Positions 3,888 through 26,927 of a stretch of DNA of 27,569 bases are shown here, piece by piece. The stretch covers positions 1 through 27,569 of the IMG/VR virus record IMGVR_UViG_3300025646_000262, one strand, 5' to 3'. Every line of letters starts with the position of its first letter. The first letter of the stretch is position 1. The notes below the pieces were generated by a model. The model was not told where the DNA came from. It made no database searches and was given only the letters and a program-made list of their open reading frames with translations. A program made the translations under genes and the position numbers. This DNA comes from a virus.

Positions 3888-3895
3888 TTTTACCC
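3888..3895 (-). promoter_or_regulatory. GGGTAAAA motif, putative late promoter for the giant structural gene
   Basis: Minus-strand GGGTAAAAG begins 4 nt after the TGA of the upstream gene and 54 nt before the ATG at 3841, the longest spacing in the set. It is one of eleven copies in the window. Promoter function is inferred from position and recurrence. Confidence 0.6.
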
Positions 3896-4422: not shown

Positions 4423-4430
4423 TTTTACCC
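4423..4430 (-). promoter_or_regulatory. GGGTAAAA motif upstream of the 4397 start
   Basis: The minus-strand motif shares its first G with the TAG stop of the gene at 4430-4762, and starts 33 nt before the ATG at 4397. It is followed 5 nt later by TATAAT, a sigma70-like -10 hexamer. The 15926 copy is followed by TATAAA at the same distance. Confidence 0.65.
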
Positions 4431-6464: not shown

Positions 6465-6472
6465 TTTTACCC
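6465..6472 (-). promoter_or_regulatory. GGGTAAAA motif upstream of the 6443 start
   Basis: The motif contains the TAA stop of the upstream gene (codons GGG TAA) and starts 29 nt before the ATG at 6443. No Shine-Dalgarno sequence separates it from the start. Confidence 0.65.
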
Positions 6473-6835: not shown

Positions 6836-7189
6836 TTATCTTTTGCTGATTTTACCCGTCCGGTCTTGGAGCATTTTGCTATTTCCCATTAGCTTATTCT
6901 TGTACTTCTCAACCTCGTGCTTCACCTCAGCTTTGAGTTTTCCTTCTGAGATCAGACGCTTCTTCTTTTCTTTATCGGTTTCCTCAGGTTCGTTTTCCTC
7001 AGGGATCTCCACCTTTTCTTCCAGGCCCAGAATCTCATCATCGATACCACCAGGGTGAACATCCTTGGTAAGTTGATCTAGGAGGGAGTCCAGGTGATCG
7101 TGCAAGCGCCTACGGCACATTCCATCTACCCCTACGGATAGGGGGCCACAAGGGATCTTATGGTTCTTTATAAGTTCTTTGGCTTTCAT
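6836..7189 (-). CDS. Hypothetical charged protein (117 aa)
   Basis: A 117-residue protein with a Cys/His-containing N-terminal half (KIPCGPL, then MCRRRLHDHLDSLLDQL) and a highly charged C-terminal half of Glu and Lys repeats that is probably helical. I do not recognise a family. AAGGAG lies 8 nt before the ATG at 7189, and the preceding gene stops 2 nt upstream, so the two are in one operon. The 3' end of the coding sequence contains a GGGTAAAA copy that appears to serve the next gene. Confidence 0.7.
   Translation of the reverse strand: MKAKELIKNHKIPCGPLSVGVDGMCRRRLHDHLDSLLDQLTKDVHPGGIDDEILGLEEKVEIPEENEPEETDKEKKKRLISEGKLKAEVKHEVEKYKNKLMGNSKMLQDRTGKISKR
6850..6857 (-). promoter_or_regulatory. 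GGGTAAAA motif inside a gene end, upstream of the 6826 start
   Basis: The motif lies within the last codons of the 117-residue gene and starts 31 nt before the ATG at 6826. Its constant distance from the next start, despite lying in coding sequence, argues for a signal that serves the downstream gene. Confidence 0.6.
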
Positions 7190-7191
7190 AG

Positions 7192-7524
7192 TCAGGCTCC
7201 TTTACGGCGAGGCATCCAGCCATCTGGCATGGTGCTGTAATGAACTCCTTTCTTACGCTCTTTGCGTGGTTTCGGATCTTGACTGTTGGCTTCCCGCATG
7301 GCCATGATCATTGTGTCTCTCATGGTGCGGAGATCCCCCCGAGGAACACTACAATACTTGCTGTCCCGGAAAGAGCGATAAGTGTGAGAAACGTCCGAAG
7401 GGTCATCGTTTTGAAGCATCATGTTCCAGACGCCGAGTGCTTGTGGGTCTTTGAGAATGCCCTGGGGGAGCCTGCTCTCGATTTCGGAGCGGTCAGGGCG
7501 ATTGAAGCGGGTGTCTTTTCTCAT
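7192..7524 (-). CDS. Hypothetical protein (110 aa), TAATG-coupled
   Basis: The frame is open upstream to 7629, but the ATG at 7524 overlaps the TAA of the HNH-domain gene as TAATG, the junction used repeatedly in this genome. I take that as the start, giving 110 residues (MRKDTRFNRPDR...). It has a PQALGVWNMML segment, an SFRDSKYCSVPRGDL stretch, a helix rich in Met and a very basic tail. No family is recognised. The position between the HNH gene and further small unknowns suggests a head or packaging accessory role, but that is weak inference. Confidence 0.7.
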   Translation of the reverse strand: MRKDTRFNRPDRSEIESRLPQGILKDPQALGVWNMMLQNDDPSDVSHTYRSFRDSKYCSVPRGDLRTMRDTMIMAMREANSQDPKPRKERKKGVHYSTMPDGWMPRRKGA

Positions 7525-9038
7525 TATCGGAACTTGGCAAGGTGTGCTTCCAAGGCATTCATTTTCTTGGGTGCTTCGCCAGATCCCACATCGGCTGAGA
7601 ATCCATACTTGCCATTTGTTTTGACCCATTTCTCCAGTTCTCCCTGAACCGCTTGGTTTTGGGAGGCCGTCAGGTGGGGGGTTAGAGCAGCCATCATCTT
7701 GTTGAGGGCCTGTTGAGGGGTAACGGTTCCGCCCTGCATTAGCTCTTTATTCCAGGTGTCCTTTATGCTCTGCGCAATTCTATCCGCCCCCGGCACATCA
7801 TTTTTGAATAGGAAGTTAATCCCCGCCCGGAACATTGGGGGAGCACCTGACTGAAGGCGAATGCCGGGGTCTCCTCCCCTAGCTGCGTCAGCAACTTTAC
7901 CCCAGTCACGAAGTTTGCCGTATGAACCAAGCACCTTAGATAGTGTCTTATCGTTTAGGCCCAGATTTTTTGGATTGAGGATGTCGTTGTCGTTGAAATT
8001 CTTTGGATTAACATTCTCCATCGCTTTATCTTTAATCTTCTTCAGGGTGTCCTTTTTACGAACGTCCCTTAGGTAGGCTATTTGCTCTTCCCTTGTCTTT
8101 GGAAGACGGTTGATAAAGGACTCCAACTCCTGGTCTACCCGTTTACGGTTAAGGCCAGCCCGAATCAAAACCCAGTTAGAGGGGGCGTCTTTACCCCCTT
8201 GCCCAAAGGGTTTAATATGCTCCACGTCCATGTCTTGCGGAGCAAATCGCTTACCGCCTCTGCCCATGTAGGCGTCGGTTCCCCCCTGCCTCATCCACAT
8301 ATCAAAAACAGCCAATCCCCTCTCTCGGGACCCGTTGTCGCCGGTCTTAAATTTGTCATTCCCGTTTTCATCTTTACCGTCATACCACCGTCCCGTAGCT
8401 TTGCCTGAGTTCTGAAGAGATGTCCTTGTACTTGCAGGCAACAGATCGTACATTGCCTCAAGCTCATTTCGAGGGAGCTTGATGCCCCTACTCATTGCGT
8501 CCAACTGCACGATGCGTTTAGCCATCTCGTCCCTGTCTGCACCTCTCAGGGTAGGTAGCCTCCTAATGAGTTCCAGGTTTTCCTCAAGCGTGGTCCTAGG
8601 TCTCTCTGCCCGCTTTTGATCTCGGTCGAACTCCAGCCGTGGTTTGGTAACTTTCTTTCCTGCCACTGTCTCTTGTCTCTTCTCTCCTTCCGAAACCTTC
8701 ATACCAGGAGCCATGCTTTGGAGGGCTGCGCCTTGACGAATGTCCGAAGCCGAGCCGGCGGTTAGTCCTTGCTTTCTTGCGATGTAGATCGCAGCACGTC
8801 TGACCTCTCGTTGCATAGGGATGGGCAAATGTACTAAGCAGTCCTTATTAAAGGCAATGCAAGTAGCACTACAAATTTTGCCTTGGCGACATCTCTTTCG
8901 GTAGCCACCAACAGCTTCATCTTTTGCCCTTATTATTTCCCTGCGGGTTGGGCCCTGACCCGTTTTCGCAGCCGCCACCCCCGTGTAGCCGGTAGGTGCT
9001 TTTGCAGCGAAATCAAAATTCAGGGCCCTGTTATCCAT
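7524..9038 (-). CDS. HNH-domain protein with N-terminal Cys motif (504 aa)
   Basis: A 504-residue basic protein with two recognisable parts. Residues 50-67 hold a four-cysteine element (C50, C56, C60, C67; KICSATCIAFNKDC), of a kind I recall from large-phage and cyanobacterial proteins. Residues about 255-300 form an HNH nuclease core: DVEHIKPFGQGG (E273-H274), N288 and N297 in NWVLIRAGLNRKR. The region after about 300 is helical and of unknown function. Such length is unusual for a free-standing homing HNH enzyme, so a virion-associated or packaging-associated nuclease is possible. It starts 5 nt after the phoH stop and is coupled by TAATG to the next gene. The HNH residues are intact, so activity is plausible. 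Confidence 0.8.
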   Translation of the reverse strand: MDNRALNFDFAAKAPTGYTGVAAAKTGQGPTRREIIRAKDEAVGGYRKRCRQGKICSATCIAFNKDCLVHLPIPMQREVRRAAIYIARKQGLTAGSASDIRQGAALQSMAPGMKVSEGEKRQETVAGKKVTKPRLEFDRDQKRAERPRTTLEENLELIRRLPTLRGADRDEMAKRIVQLDAMSRGIKLPRNELEAMYDLLPASTRTSLQNSGKATGRWYDGKDENGNDKFKTGDNGSRERGLAVFDMWMRQGGTDAYMGRGGKRFAPQDMDVEHIKPFGQGGKDAPSNWVLIRAGLNRKRVDQELESFINRLPKTREEQIAYLRDVRKKDTLKKIKDKAMENVNPKNFNDNDILNPKNLGLNDKTLSKVLGSYGKLRDWGKVADAARGGDPGIRLQSGAPPMFRAGINFLFKNDVPGADRIAQSIKDTWNKELMQGGTVTPQQALNKMMAALTPHLTASQNQAVQGELEKWVKTNGKYGFSADVGSGEAPKKMNALEAHLAKFR

Positions 9039-9892: not shown

Positions 9893-9900
9893 TTTTACCC
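9893..9900 (-). promoter_or_regulatory. GGGTAAAA motif upstream of phoH
   Basis: The motif starts 32 nt before the ATG at 9868, just after the homing-endonuclease TAA at 9903-9905. An imperfect copy (GGTAAAG) lies immediately upstream across that stop codon. Confidence 0.65.
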
Positions 9901-9902
9901 CT

Positions 9903-10429
9903 TTACCACTTTTTCTTTTCTCTGGCCTTCCTCATGCCCTCGGCTATCTTTTGCCTGACCTCCGGTGGGCACGGCCTTGTTTTCTTGCCTCTCTTGGAGG
10001 CAGCTATCTTTTGCCTAGTTTCTTCCGAAACCGGTTTACCGAACCGAGGATTACCTGGACCTTTCCGAGTTTCAGACATTTTAGCTTTGGTTTCTTCAGA
10101 GAGTTTCTTCCCCCTATTTGCTTCGGACAGCCTTTTCCGGAAAGCGTCTGTGCGAACGACACCCGAGGGTCCATCTCCACCTTCGGTGAAGTTTACCAAA
10201 ATACCGGTGTTTATGTCTTTGCGTCCAAATATGAAGATCATGTAGACCTCATGCTTGAACGCTTCTTCTTCGGTGAGACCTTTCTTCAGGAATAGGATGC
10301 GCTCCCGGGGGGGACTTTGACCTTGGCGTGTTTATTGAACGCCCTGTTGCCTTTTCCTTTTCCAATGTAGTAAGGGGTACCGTCTTCCCTGAGGTAGGCA
10401 TAGGTGTAGAACATCAAAGCATCCACCAT
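9903..10429 (-). CDS. GIY-YIG/NUMOD3 homing endonuclease, split by a -1 frameshift
   Basis: Two minus-strand frames together make a complete mobile endonuclease of about 175 residues. The first (10429 to the TGA at 10286) has the GIY-YIG start: FYTYAYL then [14 protein letters not shown]. The second resumes with [17 protein letters not shown], the catalytic-Glu element [13 protein letters not shown] and GILVN, followed by three NUMOD3-type DNA-binding repeats ([42 protein letters not shown]). The shift falls exactly at a seven-C tract (plus 10307-10313). In the zero frame this reads C CCC CCC, so a -1 slip joins the frames. It could be programmed frameshifting, a real inactivating indel or a homopolymer sequencing error. 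It lies between the terminase group and phoH, a typical homing-element location. Confidence 0.8.
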
Positions 10430-12720: not shown

Positions 12721-12872
12721 TAGAGTCTCCTTTTACATTTGGCGCATCCCCCAGGGGAGGGAGCGGGATTTGATTTGTAGGAATGTAACCTACGTAAGAT
12801 ACTTTGAGCGGCTTGTTTATCCCCTGAACTTACCGCTTTATGGTAGAGAGTCCAAAGCTGTTGAGCGGTCAT
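12720..12872 (-). CDS. Small basic protein with C-terminal CxxC (50 aa)
   Basis: The frame is open from 12929, but the ATG at 12872 overlaps the previous stop as TAATG, matching the junctions around it. The resulting 50-residue protein has a helical start (MTAQQLWTLYHKAVSS), a basic middle and a CAKCKRR tail. The CxxC alone is too little for a zinc-finger claim. It stands in the packaging unit two genes before terL. It could be a DNA-binding accessory or the true small terminase partner, but no family is recognised. Confidence 0.6.
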   Translation of the reverse strand: MTAQQLWTLYHKAVSSGDKQAAQSILRRLHSYKSNPAPSPGGCAKCKRRL

Positions 12873-14095
12873 TAGCAAACTGGCGACGGTCCTGAGTTGC
12901 CTGTACAAGGCAGACAACCCAGTTTCCACAAGGAGTTTATGACCGCCAACTCAAAGGTATCCTCTAACATCCAACCCTTACCCACGGGCGACTGGCCGAC
13001 GAAGTAGAACCGGCCTTTGGGCGTCTGGATAAAGGTTTCCATATTTACGCCAACGAGTGCCCCACCGTCTACCGATATTTGCTTGCCGTCCGGGTTTGTC
13101 GGGTCAGTATACACGTAGCTGTATCCACCTTTAACCACAGCGAATTCCCCAGTGTTAATTCCCGACATCCATGAGCTATCTTTTGAAGCGTTGAACGCAA
13201 TACCGCCATTAGCGGAACCAGCTATAGTGTTTCTCCACAGCTCAATGGCATAACGTGCGAGCTTTCTACCTGTGTCACAATAGAAAACTTCCTTGATGGG
13301 TTCACGAGTTATGGCGTCAAAGACGGTAACAACCAATTTACCGTCGCTCGTGTAACTGTTATTACTAAGGAGGTAGATGGGTTGACTCAGAGGGTCTTCC
13401 ATGAATACACAGTCAGGGTCACAGATGAATACCCAGTCTCCGCTCTGTGTAACCTCATTACTCCAGCGAACTCCCGAGCAAAGGTCATAGTCCTCTGCCG
13501 GCTCACCCTCACAGGAATACGCCGGTACGTAGATACTTCCAGTAGCGTCATCTAGCACACCCCCCAGGGGCAATTTTGTATCAACATTTCTGCCGGGGAA
13601 TATTTGCCTACAGTCCCCCCTCTGGACGCAAGGATCCAAGGCCACATACGGCAACTGGTTCTCAATGGTTACTACGTATGTCTGCGTGTAGGTGTATTGA
13701 GACTCCGGGGTAATCCCGGTAAACTGTTCGTTTTGACAGGTGAAAGGTTCAATGGTTTGAACGTAGGCTCCCGAGGGTACCGAGCCGTTCAAAGTCATAA
13801 ACGCACCTGCCAACAACTGCGTGGCGAAGTCGTGTCCAGAGGAGGTTAGATAGTTTTGAGCCGAGAAATTAAGTTCAAACGACATTTGTCGCTCAAACAC
13901 CATAGGAACCCTGTTCTTTACGTTGTCAGTGGATCCCACGTACCGGACAACAATGTTAGTCGATTGCTGGACCACACCCTCATTCTCAATGGCATCCGCC
14001 AGACGGAGAACGTTCACGCTAACGGGAATCAATGGAGATGCGATGAGAGCATCTACCATGAACTGCTCTATTCGTGAAATGGTTGAGAGATCCAA
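12872..14095 (-). CDS. Virion protein with tail-terminator-like N-terminus (407 aa, TTG start)
   Basis: A 407-residue protein. Residues 1-150 (ISRIEQFMVDAL..., FERQMSFELNFSAQNYL, FATQLLAGAF, YVVTIEN) resemble phage tail-completion proteins of the gpU/Mu gp37 kind, in which a helix-strand unit caps the tail tube. The rest is beta-rich with cysteine pairs (CDPDC, CLPC) and a PDGKQISVDGG turn region, unlike a simple terminator, so it may be a fusion. There is no ATG near the start: TTG at 14095 is preceded by an in-frame TAG seven codons upstream and lies 30 nt after a GGGTAAAA site. It leads the packaging unit. The terminator-like reading is tentative. Confidence 0.8.
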   Translation of the reverse strand: MDLSTISRIEQFMVDALIASPLIPVSVNVLRLADAIENEGVVQQSTNIVVRYVGSTDNVKNRVPMVFERQMSFELNFSAQNYLTSSGHDFATQLLAGAFMTLNGSVPSGAYVQTIEPFTCQNEQFTGITPESQYTYTQTYVVTIENQLPYVALDPCVQRGDCRQIFPGRNVDTKLPLGGVLDDATGSIYVPAYSCEGEPAEDYDLCSGVRWSNEVTQSGDWVFICDPDCVFMEDPLSQPIYLLSNNSYTSDGKLVVTVFDAITREPIKEVFYCDTGRKLARYAIELWRNTIAGSANGGIAFNASKDSSWMSGINTGEFAVVKGGYSYVYTDPTNPDGKQISVDGGALVGVNMETFIQTPKGRFYFVGQSPVGKGWMLEDTFELAVINSLWKLGCLPCTGNSGPSPVC

Positions 14096-14117: not shown

Positions 14118-14125
14118 TTTTACCC
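14118..14125 (-). promoter_or_regulatory. GGGTAAAA motif restarting transcription after a terminator
   Basis: The motif lies 6 nt beyond the T-run of an intrinsic terminator and starts 30 nt before the TTG start at 14095. Terminator followed at once by the motif is the clearest argument that the motif is a promoter. Confidence 0.7.
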
Positions 14126-14131
14126 GCCAAC

Positions 14132-14156
14132 AAAAAAGCCCCCCTTACGGGAGGCT
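14132..14156 (-). terminator. Intrinsic terminator after the coiled-coil fibre gene
   Basis: On the minus strand an 8-bp stem AGCCTCCC/GGGGGGCT (one G-T pair) with loop GTAA is followed by six T. It lies 20 nt after the stop of the fibre gene. Confidence 0.9.
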
Positions 14157-14175
14157 GTAAAACGTAGGGCAATAA

Positions 14176-15105
14176 TCAGAAGGTGCCGAGGTCGATGCCA
14201 GCCTCAATAGCACTCAGGCGAGTGTCAAGACCGGAGATGTCGGAGGCGTTGGTGGCGATGTCTGCGGTGTTGGTAGCAATGTCGCTTGCGTTAGAAGCGA
14301 TAGCCGCAGCATTTGTTGCGATGTCGGCAGCGTTGGTGGCGATGTCAGCGGCGTTAGCAGCAATCGCAGTGGCGTTGGTGCCTTCCGCAGCGGTTGCACG
14401 AGCAACTTCGTTGGTGATTGCGTTGGCGTTAGCAGTCTCCGCAGCAGTGGCACGAGCGATCTCGCTAGCCAGGTCAGCGGCTACGGTTGCAATGTCGCTG
14501 GTGTTGGTTCCGCTGTCGGTTTGAAGGGTAGCAATGTCCGAAGCGTTGCTTGCGATTGCGGCAGCATTGGTAGCAATGTCCGCAGTGTTGGTCGCAATAT
14601 CCGCAGCGTTGGCGGCGATAGCAGCCGCATTGGTGGCAATGTCGGATGCGTTAGTCGCAATGTCGGCAGTGTTAGCCGAGATGGCGCTAGCGTTGGCAGA
14701 TTCAGCAGCGGTGGCACGAGAAATCTCGTTAGTCAGGTTGGTTTGAACGCTGCTGACGCTGTTGGCGATTGTGGTGGCGAAGTTGGGATCGTCACCGAGA
14801 GCGGCAGCCAGCTCATTCAGGGTGTCGAGAACGCCAGGAGCACTCGCAATCAGGTTGGAGATTGCGGTGTCGGTGTAGGAGTTAGCAGAAGCTACGGCAG
14901 TAGCAATGTCCAGGTCGGTGGTGAAGAAACCTTGGCCAGTGGTGCCAGCCGTAGTATTACCGTCTACATCGGTAATAACGTTGCTACCATCACCAACAAA
15001 CAGCAGCTTGTCGGCAAGGTTGAAAGCGATCTGGGCAGGAGACAGAGCGGTGGGAACGCGACCTGCGACAGATGTGCGCAGGAACTGAATGCTATTTACA
15101 GCCAT
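14176..15105 (-). CDS. Trimeric coiled-coil tail fibre protein with IxxN heptads (309 aa)
   Basis: Residues 1-60 form a head domain (MAVNSIQFLRTSVAGRVP, LLFVGDGSNVITDVDGN) like other phage fibre attachment regions. VLDTLNELAAALGDDPNF (92-109) is a motif I recall from many phage fibres. Two blocks of heptads follow, I142 to about 197 and I248 to about 293. Each heptad begins with Ile and most have Asn three residues later (IATNAAD, IATNTAD). That is the IxxN or IxxNT pattern of anion-binding N-at-d layers in trimeric adhesin coiled coils. RATAAE breaks separate the blocks. No receptor-binding tip is present, so this is likely a shaft or linker fibre. It lies 21 nt after the previous stop and is followed by a strong terminator. 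Confidence 0.85.
   Translation of the reverse strand: MAVNSIQFLRTSVAGRVPTALSPAQIAFNLADKLLFVGDGSNVITDVDGNTTAGTTGQGFFTTDLDIATAVASANSYTDTAISNLIASAPGVLDTLNELAAALGDDPNFATTIANSVSSVQTNLTNEISRATAAESANASAISANTADIATNASDIATNAAAIAANAADIATNTADIATNAAAIASNASDIATLQTDSGTNTSDIATVAADLASEIARATAAETANANAITNEVARATAAEGTNATAIAANAADIATNAADIATNAAAIASNASDIATNTADIATNASDISGLDTRLSAIEAGIDLGTF
14227..14682 (-). repeat. Near-tandem 21-nt repeat arrays encoding heptads
   Basis: Two arrays (14515-14682 and 14227-14364) repeat a 21-nt unit encoding I-A-x-N-x-x-D/A. On plus it appears as variants of gcaatgtcggcagcgttggt. The copies differ mainly at third positions. Such arrays can expand or contract by recombination. Confidence 0.85.
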
Positions 15106-15416: not shown

Positions 15417-15424
15417 TTTTACCC
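15417..15424 (-). promoter_or_regulatory. GGGTAAAA motif upstream of the 15375 start
   Basis: The motif follows the TAA of the 157-residue gene directly and starts 49 nt before the ATG at 15375. This is one of two long-spaced copies. Confidence 0.6.
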
Positions 15425-15898
15425 TTAGACGATTAGGTTAGAGGGGATAGAAGTGATGTAGCCTGTGTTGGAGTCGATGGTCACACCGTCGCCAGCTTTA
15501 ATGTAGCCATTCTCGGACAGGTAGGTGGTAAGAAGGCTCTCAACCCAACCCTTCGTCACGAACGCAGCAGCATTATTGGGGACTTCATATTGAGCGTAGA
15601 TGGGGCTCTGAAACACTCCACCATTGGTAGTGAGGGTGCCGTCAGGGTTTGCTACGACGCCGATCCACTGACCGCCATTCAAGTCAACATAGTAAATGTT
15701 GAGGCTGGCGTTAGTACTGTCGTACCAGAGTGAGCCAGAAACAGGATTTGCCGGGGGAGCAACACTAATGTAGACAGGGGAGCCTTTCGGAGTTGGTGCT
15801 GCGTAAGAGACCCACTGAACGCCATTCCACTTCCAAGTTTGGCCGTTGTTTGAGTAGACTTGGTCAAGAGTTGGGTTGGGTGGAAATGAGAAAGCCAT
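15425..15898 (-). CDS. Fibre-associated protein with WNG and LWYD modules (157 aa)
   Basis: A 157-residue protein of phage-fibre type. Residues 5-30 (FPPNPTLDQVYSNNGQTWKW, then NGVQWV) and 55-70 (GSLWYDSTNASLNIYY), followed by GGQWIGV, are short beta modules I recall from many phage tail appendages. The second resembles GELWYNTESG in the giant protein and GEMWWDFANP in the 971-residue protein. The C-terminal part has a NGYIKAGDGVTIDSNTGYIT turn motif. AAGGAG lies 12 nt before the ATG, which is 35 nt after a GGGTAAAA site. It probably forms part of a fibre or its collar. The exact position is unknown. Confidence 0.8.
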   Translation of the reverse strand: MAFSFPPNPTLDQVYSNNGQTWKWNGVQWVSYAAPTPKGSPVYISVAPPANPVSGSLWYDSTNASLNIYYVDLNGGQWIGVVANPDGTLTTNGGVFQSPIYAQYEVPNNAAAFVTKGWVESLLTTYLSENGYIKAGDGVTIDSNTGYITSIPSNLIV

Positions 15899-15925: not shown

Positions 15926-15933
15926 TTTTACCC
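15926..15933 (-). promoter_or_regulatory. GGGTAAAA motif upstream of the 15898 start
   Basis: The motif starts 35 nt before the ATG at 15898, and TATAAA follows after the same 5-nt gap as TATAAT at the 4423 copy. Unusually for motif-led genes, an AAGGAG is also present. Confidence 0.65.
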
Positions 15934-17041: not shown

Positions 17042-17049
17042 TTTTACCC
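17042..17049 (-). promoter_or_regulatory. GGGTAAAA motif upstream of the 17016 start
   Basis: The motif lies 8 nt beyond the end of the upstream gene and starts 33 nt before the GTG at 17016 (21 nt before the alternative GTG at 17028). Confidence 0.65.
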
Positions 17050-19305: not shown

Positions 19306-22221
19306 CTAAAAGTTTTTACCCGGCAGCACGTAACCCGTTCGAGCACTGACTTCAGGGCTCCTCCAAGCTACTTCTTGTTGTACATCAAAGAAGCAGTCCT
19401 CCGCTGCTGACATGTCCGACGCAAAATAAGCGTAACCCACCTTGAATTGGTTTACATCAACCGTGTAGGAGGGTTCTGGAGCCTCACACGTAGGGGGACA
19501 CCTATAGATACTAGAGTCCCATACCGGGGGGAAGATGGGTATGAGAGAACCTTTAGCCAGATCATCATCGAAGTTTCCGGAGAGGCTTTTACACTCAACG
19601 CCAACTGTGTAGGTTCCCACCCACTCCCCGTACCCGTCCCCTGGGGGAGAATCGGTATCGGCAATCCGTTCATGGAGAGGCTGATAATCTGTTAGAACGC
19701 CAGGGGTAAAGTCATCTCCAACCTGAGAGGGAGTAGGATAAACGGCCGAATTAGAAAAGTCGCCGTCGTCGGGTTGATTGTAGTAAGTTCCTACAGTAGA
19801 AAAGAGGTAAGGCTCATCGTAAATTACGCCGTCATAAGGGACTGTCGGGGGATACAGAACTAACTCTCCGTACAGTTTAGGGGGTCGAGCACTCGGAGGA
19901 CAATCCAGTTTTTCCGCTTCGACTGTCGTCCCGTAATAGGTAAAGTCCTGAGCAATCATTTCCGTTTTCGACCATTTGTCTCCATTCCTTTCGTATGACG
20001 GAGGAAGGCGAAAAATCAAACGGCTCCAGTTCCCCGCAGGGCCTGAGTTTTGATCTGCTATCAGTGCGTTGGGATACAAACCTCTTTCCAGTTGACCCGG
20101 GTAGTCGACAGCTTGCAGGAAGGTTGATTTCCAGATTCGAAGGGGTGTCTCACAGTCTAAAACATTTGGGCTCATGTAGTACCTGAGACCACTAAAAAGG
20201 TAGTCGGAAATGTCCGCCCGGTAGGCAGAGGTGAGCGCATCGGCCACCAGAACTGCGGGGAATTGGGTTTTTCCTTTGAGGGTGTAGGGGGTGTAGGAAA
20301 AATTGAACATTCCCGTCGAACCGTCAATATCGAACTTGAACGTGAAGTCTTCCGTATCGATTTTTTCTCCCGGCGAGACTAGCTTACCGTCTACATAAAT
20401 ACCGACGGCATCGAAGGAGACAACCCCGGGATCTGTACCCAGTGGCGGGAAATAATTGATAGACACCCAGGCATTGCCGTACCAGATAGCCGCCATTCGG
20501 GTAGTGGGGTCAGGATTGGCAAAATCCCACCACATCTCCCCCTGCTCCGGCTCCCCCGAGCCATCGTAAAGCCGGGTATTTCCGATAAATCGCAAAATAG
20601 AACTGGGCGAAAGCAACCAGCTGTCCATAGTATACTCTTTCGTCAAGAGTAGTGCATACGACTGGAGTAAAGTAAGCTCGTACTCCAAGTTAATCACATT
20701 GTAGACTCCCGGTTCTTCCGGTTTCAGGCCTTCAGAGTCAAGGAGGCGAACCTCCGTACCAATGGGGAGGTAGGGGGCATTTGCGGAGAATTCCGCCACA
20801 TTAGCAAAGCCAAACTGATAAACCTCGTACAGAATGCCCTCCTTCTGGTTATAGAGAATAACCTCACCCGAACCCGGCAAAGGTGCGGTTATCCCTTTGA
20901 CCCAGTAGGTTCCACCGTCTGCTTGAAGGCCGGTGACGTCAAGAATTCTGATTGTTCCCCCTAAGGCAATATTCGGTGCGTCCGCAGCAAACTCAGCCAC
21001 AGTGTTATAGGTGTAGGTAGCTCGGGGTATTGGTTCTGGGTTTTGACGATAGTTCACTTCCAACCACGCACCGCAGCTAACATCCCTGGGCGGGTTAACG
21101 GAGAAGGCCCCGTTAGCGGGGTTCCACCACGCTGCCCATTCCCCAAGGTTGTCGGGATTCTCCATCCTTTGGGAGGTTTTCTGGTAGTAAGCCAGATTAA
21201 GGAGTGTGTTAAACTCTATACTTTTCTGGATGGGGTCCAGGTAGAGGGAATTTGCCTCATCAAACCCGTTGATGCTTAGAGCATCGAAACAGAGGTTGAA
21301 AGGTAGCACACCTCCCTTGTTCCCCCAAGCCCCAGTGTAATTTGACAAAACTTCGTAGTTGTTCCAGTCCGAAGGGTCAACCCAGTTGTACAACGTTACT
21401 TCGCAGACGACATCAGTCTGTACGCTACGATTTGAGTAGGGCCATACCAGGTAGCCAGTGGATCCAGATCTCCCTCCGGCAACGTCGTTAGGTAAATCTA
21501 TGTACCACCTTAACTCAATCGGGTCGTACTGGGTTTCTACAAAAGGTTCTAAGGGGGCGTTAGAAGCCGAAAAATAAACCGGCTGGTCGAAGAAATATCG
21601 AGAACCGGGGATAAGTATGTTGTACTTATAGGGTACGGTGTGTTGTCTGTCCCAGTAGGGGTACAGAACCAGGGTTCCGTTCTCAGCAGCACATGAGAAG
21701 GCCGTATCTGCCGATACTCCGGGCTCAGGACGGACGAACGGGGCGGGTCTATTTTCTCGGCTATCTATCTTGAGCTGTGCGTTCTCCTGAAACCCGTCAT
21801 AAAAACCCGAGTCGGTGTTAGTCAGGTGAAGAACCAGGGTATCACCTTGCTCCTCTATCTGTTCGATTGTCGCTGTTTTATCGCCCAGGTAGCAGGTTTG
21901 CCCTTCCCTTAGCCCCTCTACGTACTTTACGAGTAAATAGTCGTCTGTGCTGTCCGCACCCAGTACTTGCGGGATCGTAAAGCTGTTGAACACCCCGTAG
22001 CTTCCCGCCAGTAGTTGACGCTTCTCGCTTACTGTGCGAGCCAGGTTTTTCCAGTAGTTATCTCCACTCCACCCTAAAAGTTGAGCAACCCAATCAAGTT
22101 GGCCATTTACACGCCTCCTGACCTCCGTTACAGCCCGAGACTGCTCGTTACTAAGGTAGGGATCGAGCTGAGATCTGAGCTCAAACTCCTCGATGTTGAA
22201 GCTGGGGGTTTCAAAAGTCAT
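19306..22221 (-). CDS. Large tail/baseplate structural protein with duplicated module (971 aa)
   Basis: A 971-residue, beta-rich virion protein. The N-terminal 80 residues are helical (SNEQSRAVTEVRRRVNGQ, NYWKNLARTVSEKRQLL) and may dock to the baseplate. The middle contains a duplication: WWNPANGAFSV to VNY (366-391) and VAEFAADAP...RILD (408-427) are matched by VAEFSANAP...RLLD (475-495) and MWWDFANP to INY (563-590). The C-terminal region has Cys pairs (CPPTC). The length and position after the Baseplate_J gene suggest a large wedge-type component or fibre connector, but no T4 homologue is recognised. TAA and ATG are adjacent at the junction with the 409-residue gene. Its last codons contain a GGGTAAAA site. 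Confidence 0.8.
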   Translation of the reverse strand: MTFETPSFNIEEFELRSQLDPYLSNEQSRAVTEVRRRVNGQLDWVAQLLGWSGDNYWKNLARTVSEKRQLLAGSYGVFNSFTIPQVLGADSTDDYLLVKYVEGLREGQTCYLGDKTATIEQIEEQGDTLVLHLTNTDSGFYDGFQENAQLKIDSRENRPAPFVRPEPGVSADTAFSCAAENGTLVLYPYWDRQHTVPYKYNILIPGSRYFFDQPVYFSASNAPLEPFVETQYDPIELRWYIDLPNDVAGGRSGSTGYLVWPYSNRSVQTDVVCEVTLYNWVDPSDWNNYEVLSNYTGAWGNKGGVLPFNLCFDALSINGFDEANSLYLDPIQKSIEFNTLLNLAYYQKTSQRMENPDNLGEWAAWWNPANGAFSVNPPRDVSCGAWLEVNYRQNPEPIPRATYTYNTVAEFAADAPNIALGGTIRILDVTGLQADGGTYWVKGITAPLPGSGEVILYNQKEGILYEVYQFGFANVAEFSANAPYLPIGTEVRLLDSEGLKPEEPGVYNVINLEYELTLLQSYALLLTKEYTMDSWLLSPSSILRFIGNTRLYDGSGEPEQGEMWWDFANPDPTTRMAAIWYGNAWVSINYFPPLGTDPGVVSFDAVGIYVDGKLVSPGEKIDTEDFTFKFDIDGSTGMFNFSYTPYTLKGKTQFPAVLVADALTSAYRADISDYLFSGLRYYMSPNVLDCETPLRIWKSTFLQAVDYPGQLERGLYPNALIADQNSGPAGNWSRLIFRLPPSYERNGDKWSKTEMIAQDFTYYGTTVEAEKLDCPPSARPPKLYGELVLYPPTVPYDGVIYDEPYLFSTVGTYYNQPDDGDFSNSAVYPTPSQVGDDFTPGVLTDYQPLHERIADTDSPPGDGYGEWVGTYTVGVECKSLSGNFDDDLAKGSLIPIFPPVWDSSIYRCPPTCEAPEPSYTVDVNQFKVGYAYFASDMSAAEDCFFDVQQEVAWRSPEVSARTGYVLPGKNF
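19314..19321 (-). promoter_or_regulatory. GGGTAAAA motif inside a gene end, upstream of the 19292 start
   Basis: The motif lies in the last codons of the 971-residue gene (encoding GK) and starts 29 nt before the ATG at 19292. Like the 6850 copy it is embedded in coding sequence yet keeps its distance to the next start. Confidence 0.6.
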
Positions 22222-26282: not shown

Positions 26283-26840
26283 TCACAGCGGGCATACCTG
26301 GTCGGAGCCACCTGTTACGGAGTAGTTGTAGCAGCCAGGGTCGGTAGTTGAGTAGTAAACACCGTCATCTACGTACAGAAGGGCCTGAATACGGTCAAGT
26401 TGTTCTTGCAGGATCTCTTTAGTGATGAGGTCCGCATCGTCCATTGCCTGGAGCTTCTGGGGGAGAGTGGGAGTAGGGATCCCGGAAGCGTACTGATATT
26501 TTTCGTTAGTGGTATAGCTTTTTGGGGCCGTAGTAATATCGTTGGCAGGGTTTTCAACTATGACAGGGTCATAGCCGAAGTTCCAATAGCCGGTTACAAC
26601 CTTTCCACCGCTGATGGGGTTACCAGAGACGTATAGACCACTAACACTCATGGTCGGTTGGTTGGAGCCCAACGTAATATACCTTGAGTCGATTCCGTCT
26701 GGGCCAGCGGTAATTAAGGAGCTTAGCCCCAGGGGGTCATAGTGCCAGTCAAGGTCCTGCCCATCGAAGTAGATTTGCTGAGCTCCGTTCAACCATTGGC
26801 TAGTAACAATAACGCCTGAACTAAAGGTCGTTTTACTCAT
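26283..26840 (-). CDS. Tail-region structural protein (185 aa)
   Basis: A 185-residue protein. The N-terminal 100 residues look beta-rich with an opening similar to other phage structural proteins (FSSGVIVTSQWLNGAQQIYF). A loop with Pro, Thr and Tyr follows, then a helix (LQAMDDADLITKEILQEQLD) and a C-terminal Tyr/Cys segment. No family is recognised. The start lies 35 nt after a GGGTAAAA site that follows a terminator, so it heads the baseplate block. A tail or baseplate accessory role is inferred from that position. Confidence 0.75.
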   Translation of the reverse strand: MSKTTFSSGVIVTSQWLNGAQQIYFDGQDLDWHYDPLGLSSLITAGPDGIDSRYITLGSNQPTMSVSGLYVSGNPISGGKVVTGYWNFGYDPVIVENPANDITTAPKSYTTNEKYQYASGIPTPTLPQKLQAMDDADLITKEILQEQLDRIQALLYVDDGVYYSTTDPGCYNYSVTGGSDQVCPL

Positions 26841-26867: not shown

Positions 26868-26875
26868 TTTTACCC
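26868..26875 (-). promoter_or_regulatory. GGGTAAAA motif at the head of the baseplate block
   Basis: The motif lies 11 nt beyond the T-run of an intrinsic terminator and starts 35 nt before the ATG at 26840. It has the same terminator-then-motif arrangement as at 14118. Confidence 0.7.
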
Positions 26876-26886
26876 TACTTACCAAT

Positions 26887-26910
26887 AAAAAACCCCGGCC
26901 GAAGCCGGGG
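26887..26910 (-). terminator. Intrinsic terminator after the tail-tube-like gene
   Basis: On the minus strand a perfect 7-bp stem CCCCGGC/GCCGGGG with loop TTCG (the stable UUCG tetraloop in RNA) is followed by TTTTTTATT. It lies 17 nt after the stop of the tube-like gene. Confidence 0.95.
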
Positions 26911-26927
26911 CGTGAGTTTGAACCGAA

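Follow-up and report, generated by a model that had tools for sequence, protein, structure and literature searches.

The late promoters of phage T4 consist of an 8-bp TATAAATA box one helical turn upstream of the start, with no −35 element, and they are read with the help of the gp55 sigma factor, gp33, and the gp45 clamp (PMC2988020). SigB-type promoters have the consensus GTTTAA-N15-GGGTAT (PMC9847131). In the Microcystis phage Ma-LMM01, all promoter classes resemble those of the host sigma70, and there is no phage gp55-like sigma (PMC5780444). Here, we describe an octamer, GGGTAAAA, that recurs in a 27,569-nucleotide stretch of viral DNA (positions 1 to 27,569 of IMG/VR record IMGVR_UViG_3300025646_000262, hereafter the window) and that, judging from sequence, we take with a probability of roughly 0.88 to be the late promoter of a cyanobacterial-virus lineage related to Synechococcus phage S-CBWM1. 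We found no prior description of this element in the cyanophage promoter literature at the level of titles and abstracts.

The site that drew attention to the octamer lies entirely on the minus strand (Table 1); the initial annotation named no strand. As the initial annotation had claimed, an 8-bp stem with six T closes the fiber unit, GGGTAAAA follows 6 nt later, and the next start codon is 30 nt away. The hairpin has eight pairs, including one G-U, a GUAA loop, and a folding energy of −15.8 kcal/mol (z = −3.7), which none of 200 shuffled sequences equaled. The first of the six T (14137-14132) closes the stem, and the whole, a G+C-rich hairpin and then a T-run at 14156-14132, has the makeup of an intrinsic terminator and is predicted to be one. 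It is separated by GTTGGC (14131-14126) from the box (14125-14118), whose start is 30 nt and whose end is 22 nt upstream of the TTG at 14095. This TTG is credible as a start codon because orthologues of the 407-aa gene start, with ATG or TTG, at the identical aligned position. Since the downstream unit comprises the 407-aa gene, two small genes, and terL, the label of fiber/packaging boundary was also apt. A scan for the host sigma70 promoter (TTGACA-16/18-TATAAT) gave no promoter-like match near 14118-14160. The fiber-like protein upstream is largely composed of short ATNAADIA-type repeats and has no Pfam match.

Table 1. Boxes, terminators, and adjoining genes in the window
Feature	Position	Strand	Remark
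GGGTAAAA box	26868-26875	minus	Before 185-aa gene
Second intrinsic terminator stem-loop (predicted)	26892-26911	minus	Box 26868-26875 directly after; the window's other strong terminator
GGGTAAAA box	19314-19321	minus	Before 102-aa ORF, within end of 971-aa gene
GGGTAAAA box	17042-17049	minus	Before 363-aa gene (Mu gp36-like domain)
GGGTAAAA box	15926-15933	minus	Before 157-aa gene 15425-15898
GGGTAAAA box	15417-15424	minus	Before 82-aa ORF
Fiber-like repetitive gene	14176-15105	minus	Stop at 14176; terminator downstream
Intrinsic terminator stem-loop (predicted), AGCCUCCC-GUAA-GGGGGGCU	14156-14137	minus	Ends fiber-like unit
GGGTAAAA box	14118-14125	minus	Predicted late promoter, about −14 to −7, of 407-aa gene/terL unit
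Predicted transcription start A (T before)	14111	minus	Seventh base past box; from 160-site profile
407-aa gene, TTG start	12872-14095	minus	Function not assigned; then two small genes and terL
GGGTAAAA box	9893-9900	minus	Before phoH-like gene
GGGTAAAA box	6850-6857	minus	Before 119-aa gene, within end of preceding gene
GGGTAAAA box	6465-6472	minus	Before 234-aa gene; box TAA is preceding gene's stop codon
GGGTAAAA box	4423-4430	minus	Before 165-aa gene
GGGTAAAA box	3888-3895	minus	Before 1280-aa structural gene

The window contains 11 exact copies of GGGTAAAA, all on the minus, coding strand, where 1.19 ± 1.12 are expected; none of 100 shuffles of the window reached this number, and one-mismatch forms showed no excess. 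Two minus-strand reading frames are recorded here as side observations. Between terL and phoH, at 9903-10241 and directly before a box, lies a 112-aa ORF that contains NUMOD3, a motif associated with homing endonucleases. A 504-aa protein (7524-9038) has no Pfam match, contains by eye an HNH-like stretch (VEHIKPFGQGGKDAPSNWVLI), and can be aligned, weakly, with a protein of S-CBWM1 that carries the annotation virion structural.

The terL product of the window is 51% identical to that of S-CBWM1 and 33% identical to that of S-TIM5. Across 80 loci with terL relatives, which overlap in descent, the strand ratio of GGGTAAAA is 267:0. In whole records, it is 33:1 in S-CBWM1, 31:0 in a 112-kb contig, and 29:0 in a 92-kb contig, but only 8:4 in S-TIM5. 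Moreover, no 8-mer is more over-represented than GGGTAAAA in the window or in any of the seven relatives tested, two of which (G002 and G003) are close to each other. Some orthologues of the window's genes have no box.

Placement is best seen in S-CBWM1, where 28 of 33 boxes have their end no more than 60 nt before the start of an annotated feature, in positions that make up 9% of the genome. Two of them precede tRNA genes, and in seven copies the TAA of the box doubles as the stop codon of the preceding gene; indeed, many boxes are located inside the end of the gene before them. Distances from box to start are variable (4-95 nt, with one at 227). Genes with a box have a median gap of 46 nt before them, vs. 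23 nt for those without, and 3 of 32 overlap with the feature before them or start at most 10 nt past it, compared with 79 of 176 others. Both in the window and in its relatives, operon-internal genes, such as those for the baseplate J-like protein and terL, almost never have a box.

The box is mostly GGGTAAAA and sometimes AGGTAAAA, and its core is strict: only replacement of the first G by A is clearly tolerated, and other single changes stay near background. In 160 non-redundant sites, it is flanked by A or C before and C or T after. Positions 13 to 16 read T, A, A/T, A, with A at position 14, the seventh base past the box, in 93 of the 160 sites. If this A is +1, the box occupies −14 to −7, which is the place of a −10 element. 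We thus picture a promoter made of a single 8-bp box at about −14 to −7, without a −35 element, from which RNA would start at the A seven bases past the last A of the box; at our site, the predicted start would give a 16-nt leader. No coherent upstream signal was seen in the 160 sites: a single isolated column exceeds a loose threshold, and the words enriched there (CTTCGG and others) look like pieces of terminator hairpin loops. On these grounds, we rejected a hidden −35 element. In a separate observation, which holds for S-CBWM1 only, about 30 nt of conserved sequence (CTACAGATGTGAAAGATTATTCACTGTCCCAT) directly precede several boxes of the GGGTAAAA or AGGTAAAA form (at 26633, 65857, 96451, 126611, 132314, and 135656); this sequence is possibly an upstream activating element or a mobile promoter cassette.

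The initial annotation had reasoned that a motif placed just after a terminator is most simply a promoter, and the relatives support this. Each of eight genomes contains one to three T-run hairpins with a box within the next 60 nt, where 0.13-0.23 are expected. The orthologous sites ahead of the 407-aa gene keep the box constant while their hairpins differ in sequence. Among 45 distinct orthologous sites, 29 have terminator and box, 7 the box only, and 9 neither, and none has a terminator alone. Terminators thus occur at 29 of 36 loci with a box vs. 0 of 9 without (Fisher p = 1.3e-5, uncorrected for the shared ancestry of the 45 loci). That terminators are found only where a box follows is what would be expected if the box is a promoter that makes the terminator tolerable. 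Independent support comes from the strand bias, the placement before genes, including tRNA genes, and the initiator at a fixed distance, and further support from the phage-encoded sigma factors and the restriction of the box to the part of the genome with structural genes, both described below. At 14118, transcription would restart for the packaging unit right after termination of the fiber unit.

One relative, the 190-kb contig G021, has no box in its first 100 kb; its last 90 kb have 21 and hold all the detected orthologues of the window's structural genes. The box is a repeated element just upstream of structural-gene transcription units, the pattern by which a phage late promoter is recognized, and it is from this gene content that we infer its late timing. 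In the first 100 kb of G021, GGGCGGTT occurs instead 38 times, with −35/−10-like hexamers after most copies. The box thus stands for one class, and the sigma70-like promoters form another. We also observed that a second repeated element, a GC palindrome that reads GGGCGGTAAACCGCCC in S-CBWM1 and GGGCGGTTTCCC in G021 (1-100 kb, the 38 GGGCGGTT copies), adjoins sigma70-like −35/−10 hexamers. In S-CBWM1 (NC_048106), it is found at about 11170, 17543, 23035, 28409, 38756, 40197, and 101565, and TTTACA-N17-TAAGCT-like hexamers come after it ahead of many small genes and of the sigma gene gp055. From its sequence, this combination looks like an early-promoter cassette, possibly with a built-in operator or terminator.

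S-CBWM1 encodes two sigma-like proteins, gp045 and gp055; no sigma gene is present in the window, a 27.6-kb fragment. Searching viral contigs with the sigma proteins yielded eleven further contigs that were found by this route only. All of them are rich in boxes and, for the most part, one-stranded, and ten of the eleven encode two such sigmas. gp055 combines a region 2 with an end that resembles region 4. The matches of gp045 cover regions 2 to 3 of SigB, FliA, and SigA, and by profile search the solved chains closest to gp045 are Staphylococcus aureus SigB and E. coli-type FliA. No region 4 was detected in gp045, including in its structure model (low confidence, mean pLDDT 64), as would suit a promoter that has no −35 element. 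The structure models of the sigmas confirm sigma-type folds and are too weak for detail. Most gp055-type genes have their own sigma70-like promoter (sigma loci L123, L126, L127, L129, L133, and L098), and gp045-type genes directly follow the preceding reading frame, which in S-CBWM1 encodes the large subunit of ribonucleotide reductase. This arrangement suggests an order of expression.

S-TIM5 (NC_019516) offers a counterpart. Its single sigma matches gp045, not gp055, and no gp055-type sigma was detected in it. Its most over-represented octamer is GTTTAAAG, which lies upstream of 19 of 52 tested genes, mostly structural, at 18-43 nt and in a few cases at 80 nt or more. Examples precede the genes at 49592, 83346, 130630, and, on the minus strand, 41584. 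We consider GTTTAAAG the probable late promoter of S-TIM5-like phages.

GGGTAAAA is a strand-specific, start-proximal, and initiator-linked element that the lineage has conserved and that keeps to the part of the genome with structural genes. An over-represented and one-stranded octamer could also be a Chi-like, replication, or packaging sequence whose strand skew has nothing to do with transcription. However, the boxes are just upstream of genes, occur in one part only of the largest relative, and are tied to the initiator and to terminators; given this distribution, we rejected a Chi-like octamer, and we regard the whole idea as extremely improbable. Alternatively, the box might act at the RNA level, as a processing site or translation enhancer in the leader of read-through transcripts, in keeping with its closeness to start codons and with the conserved T-A past it, which could also be a cleavage point. 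Boxes that precede tRNA genes and variable distances to starts argue against this and led us to reject a translation element, a processing element would not confine terminators to sites followed by a box, many boxes lie inside a preceding gene, and no known RNA family was matched in the window. A leader element is therefore improbable, and we infer that RNA starts at the boxes.

If the box is a late promoter, who reads it is a separate question. The reader would most likely be the host RNA polymerase with a phage-encoded sigma, for which the gp045 type is the somewhat more probable candidate; this preference draws on one comparison, that with S-TIM5, where a gp045-like sigma only is found with an analogous box, and on the region 4 that went undetected in the low-confidence model of gp045. 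The main alternative is a gp055-type sigma, which has regions 2 and 4; that it reads the box, or that host polymerase does so with the help of another activator, is less likely. Although gp055 is also present in the box-rich contigs and is predicted to be expressed in most relatives from sigma70-like promoters, as a switch to late genes would need, a sigma with region 4 is expected to need a −35 element, of which none is seen, and S-TIM5 has its box without a detectable gp055-type sigma.

Read as a late promoter, the box provides a simple, testable rule for recognizing transcription units in a widespread and little-studied group of cyanobacterial viruses, in which it marks the coding strand and the late modules even in short metagenome fragments. 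More broadly, it is an even bet that a widespread non-T4 lineage has a late system of its own, in which a SigB/FliA-like sigma without region 4 would read a single extended −10 box, box and sigma would change together (GGGTAAAA in S-CBWM1 relatives, GTTTAAAG in S-TIM5), and another phage sigma, made from early promoters, would stand between host and late control. The two pairs of box and sigma, S-CBWM1-like and S-TIM5-like, would suit a study of how a sigma and its promoter change together.

How does this compare with the known systems? In Ma-LMM01, likewise a freshwater cyanomyovirus, early, middle, and late classes are distinguished (PMC5780444), but its promoters are sigma70-like throughout, in contrast to the GGGTAAAA box. 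The −10 GGGTAT of SigB-type promoters resembles the GGGTAA of the box, and the profile of gp045 is closest to SigB/FliA; however, there is no −35 GTTT element 12-17 nt before the −10, and gp045 has no detectable region 4. The likeness is suggestive, and it may be a coincidence. The GTTTAAAG box of S-TIM5 is likewise a strict octamer before mostly structural genes, several copies being directly past T-runs, with a T-A/R initiator about eight bases on, and the two octamers share the frame GKKTAAAR. S-TIM5 differs in its box sequence, its AT-rich genome, its genes on both strands, and its one sigma.

As for T4, both systems have a single, tightly conserved 8-bp box that precedes the start, here a predicted one, by about one helical turn, and neither has a −35 element; they also share dozens of copies before late genes and the availability of a phage-encoded sigma. 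On the other hand, TATAAATA has only 0-1 copies per strand per genome here, its place being taken by GGGTAAAA, and gp55 belongs to phrog_234, whereas the S-CBWM1 sigmas belong to phrog_351, with no profile match between them. The T4-type clamp, searched for as PF02916, had no match in five records. While box sequence and sigma family thus do not fit the T4 late promoters, the functional layout is alike, which suggests that the T4 solution, an 8-bp box with no −35 element and a phage sigma, was arrived at a second time by way of a different sigma factor.
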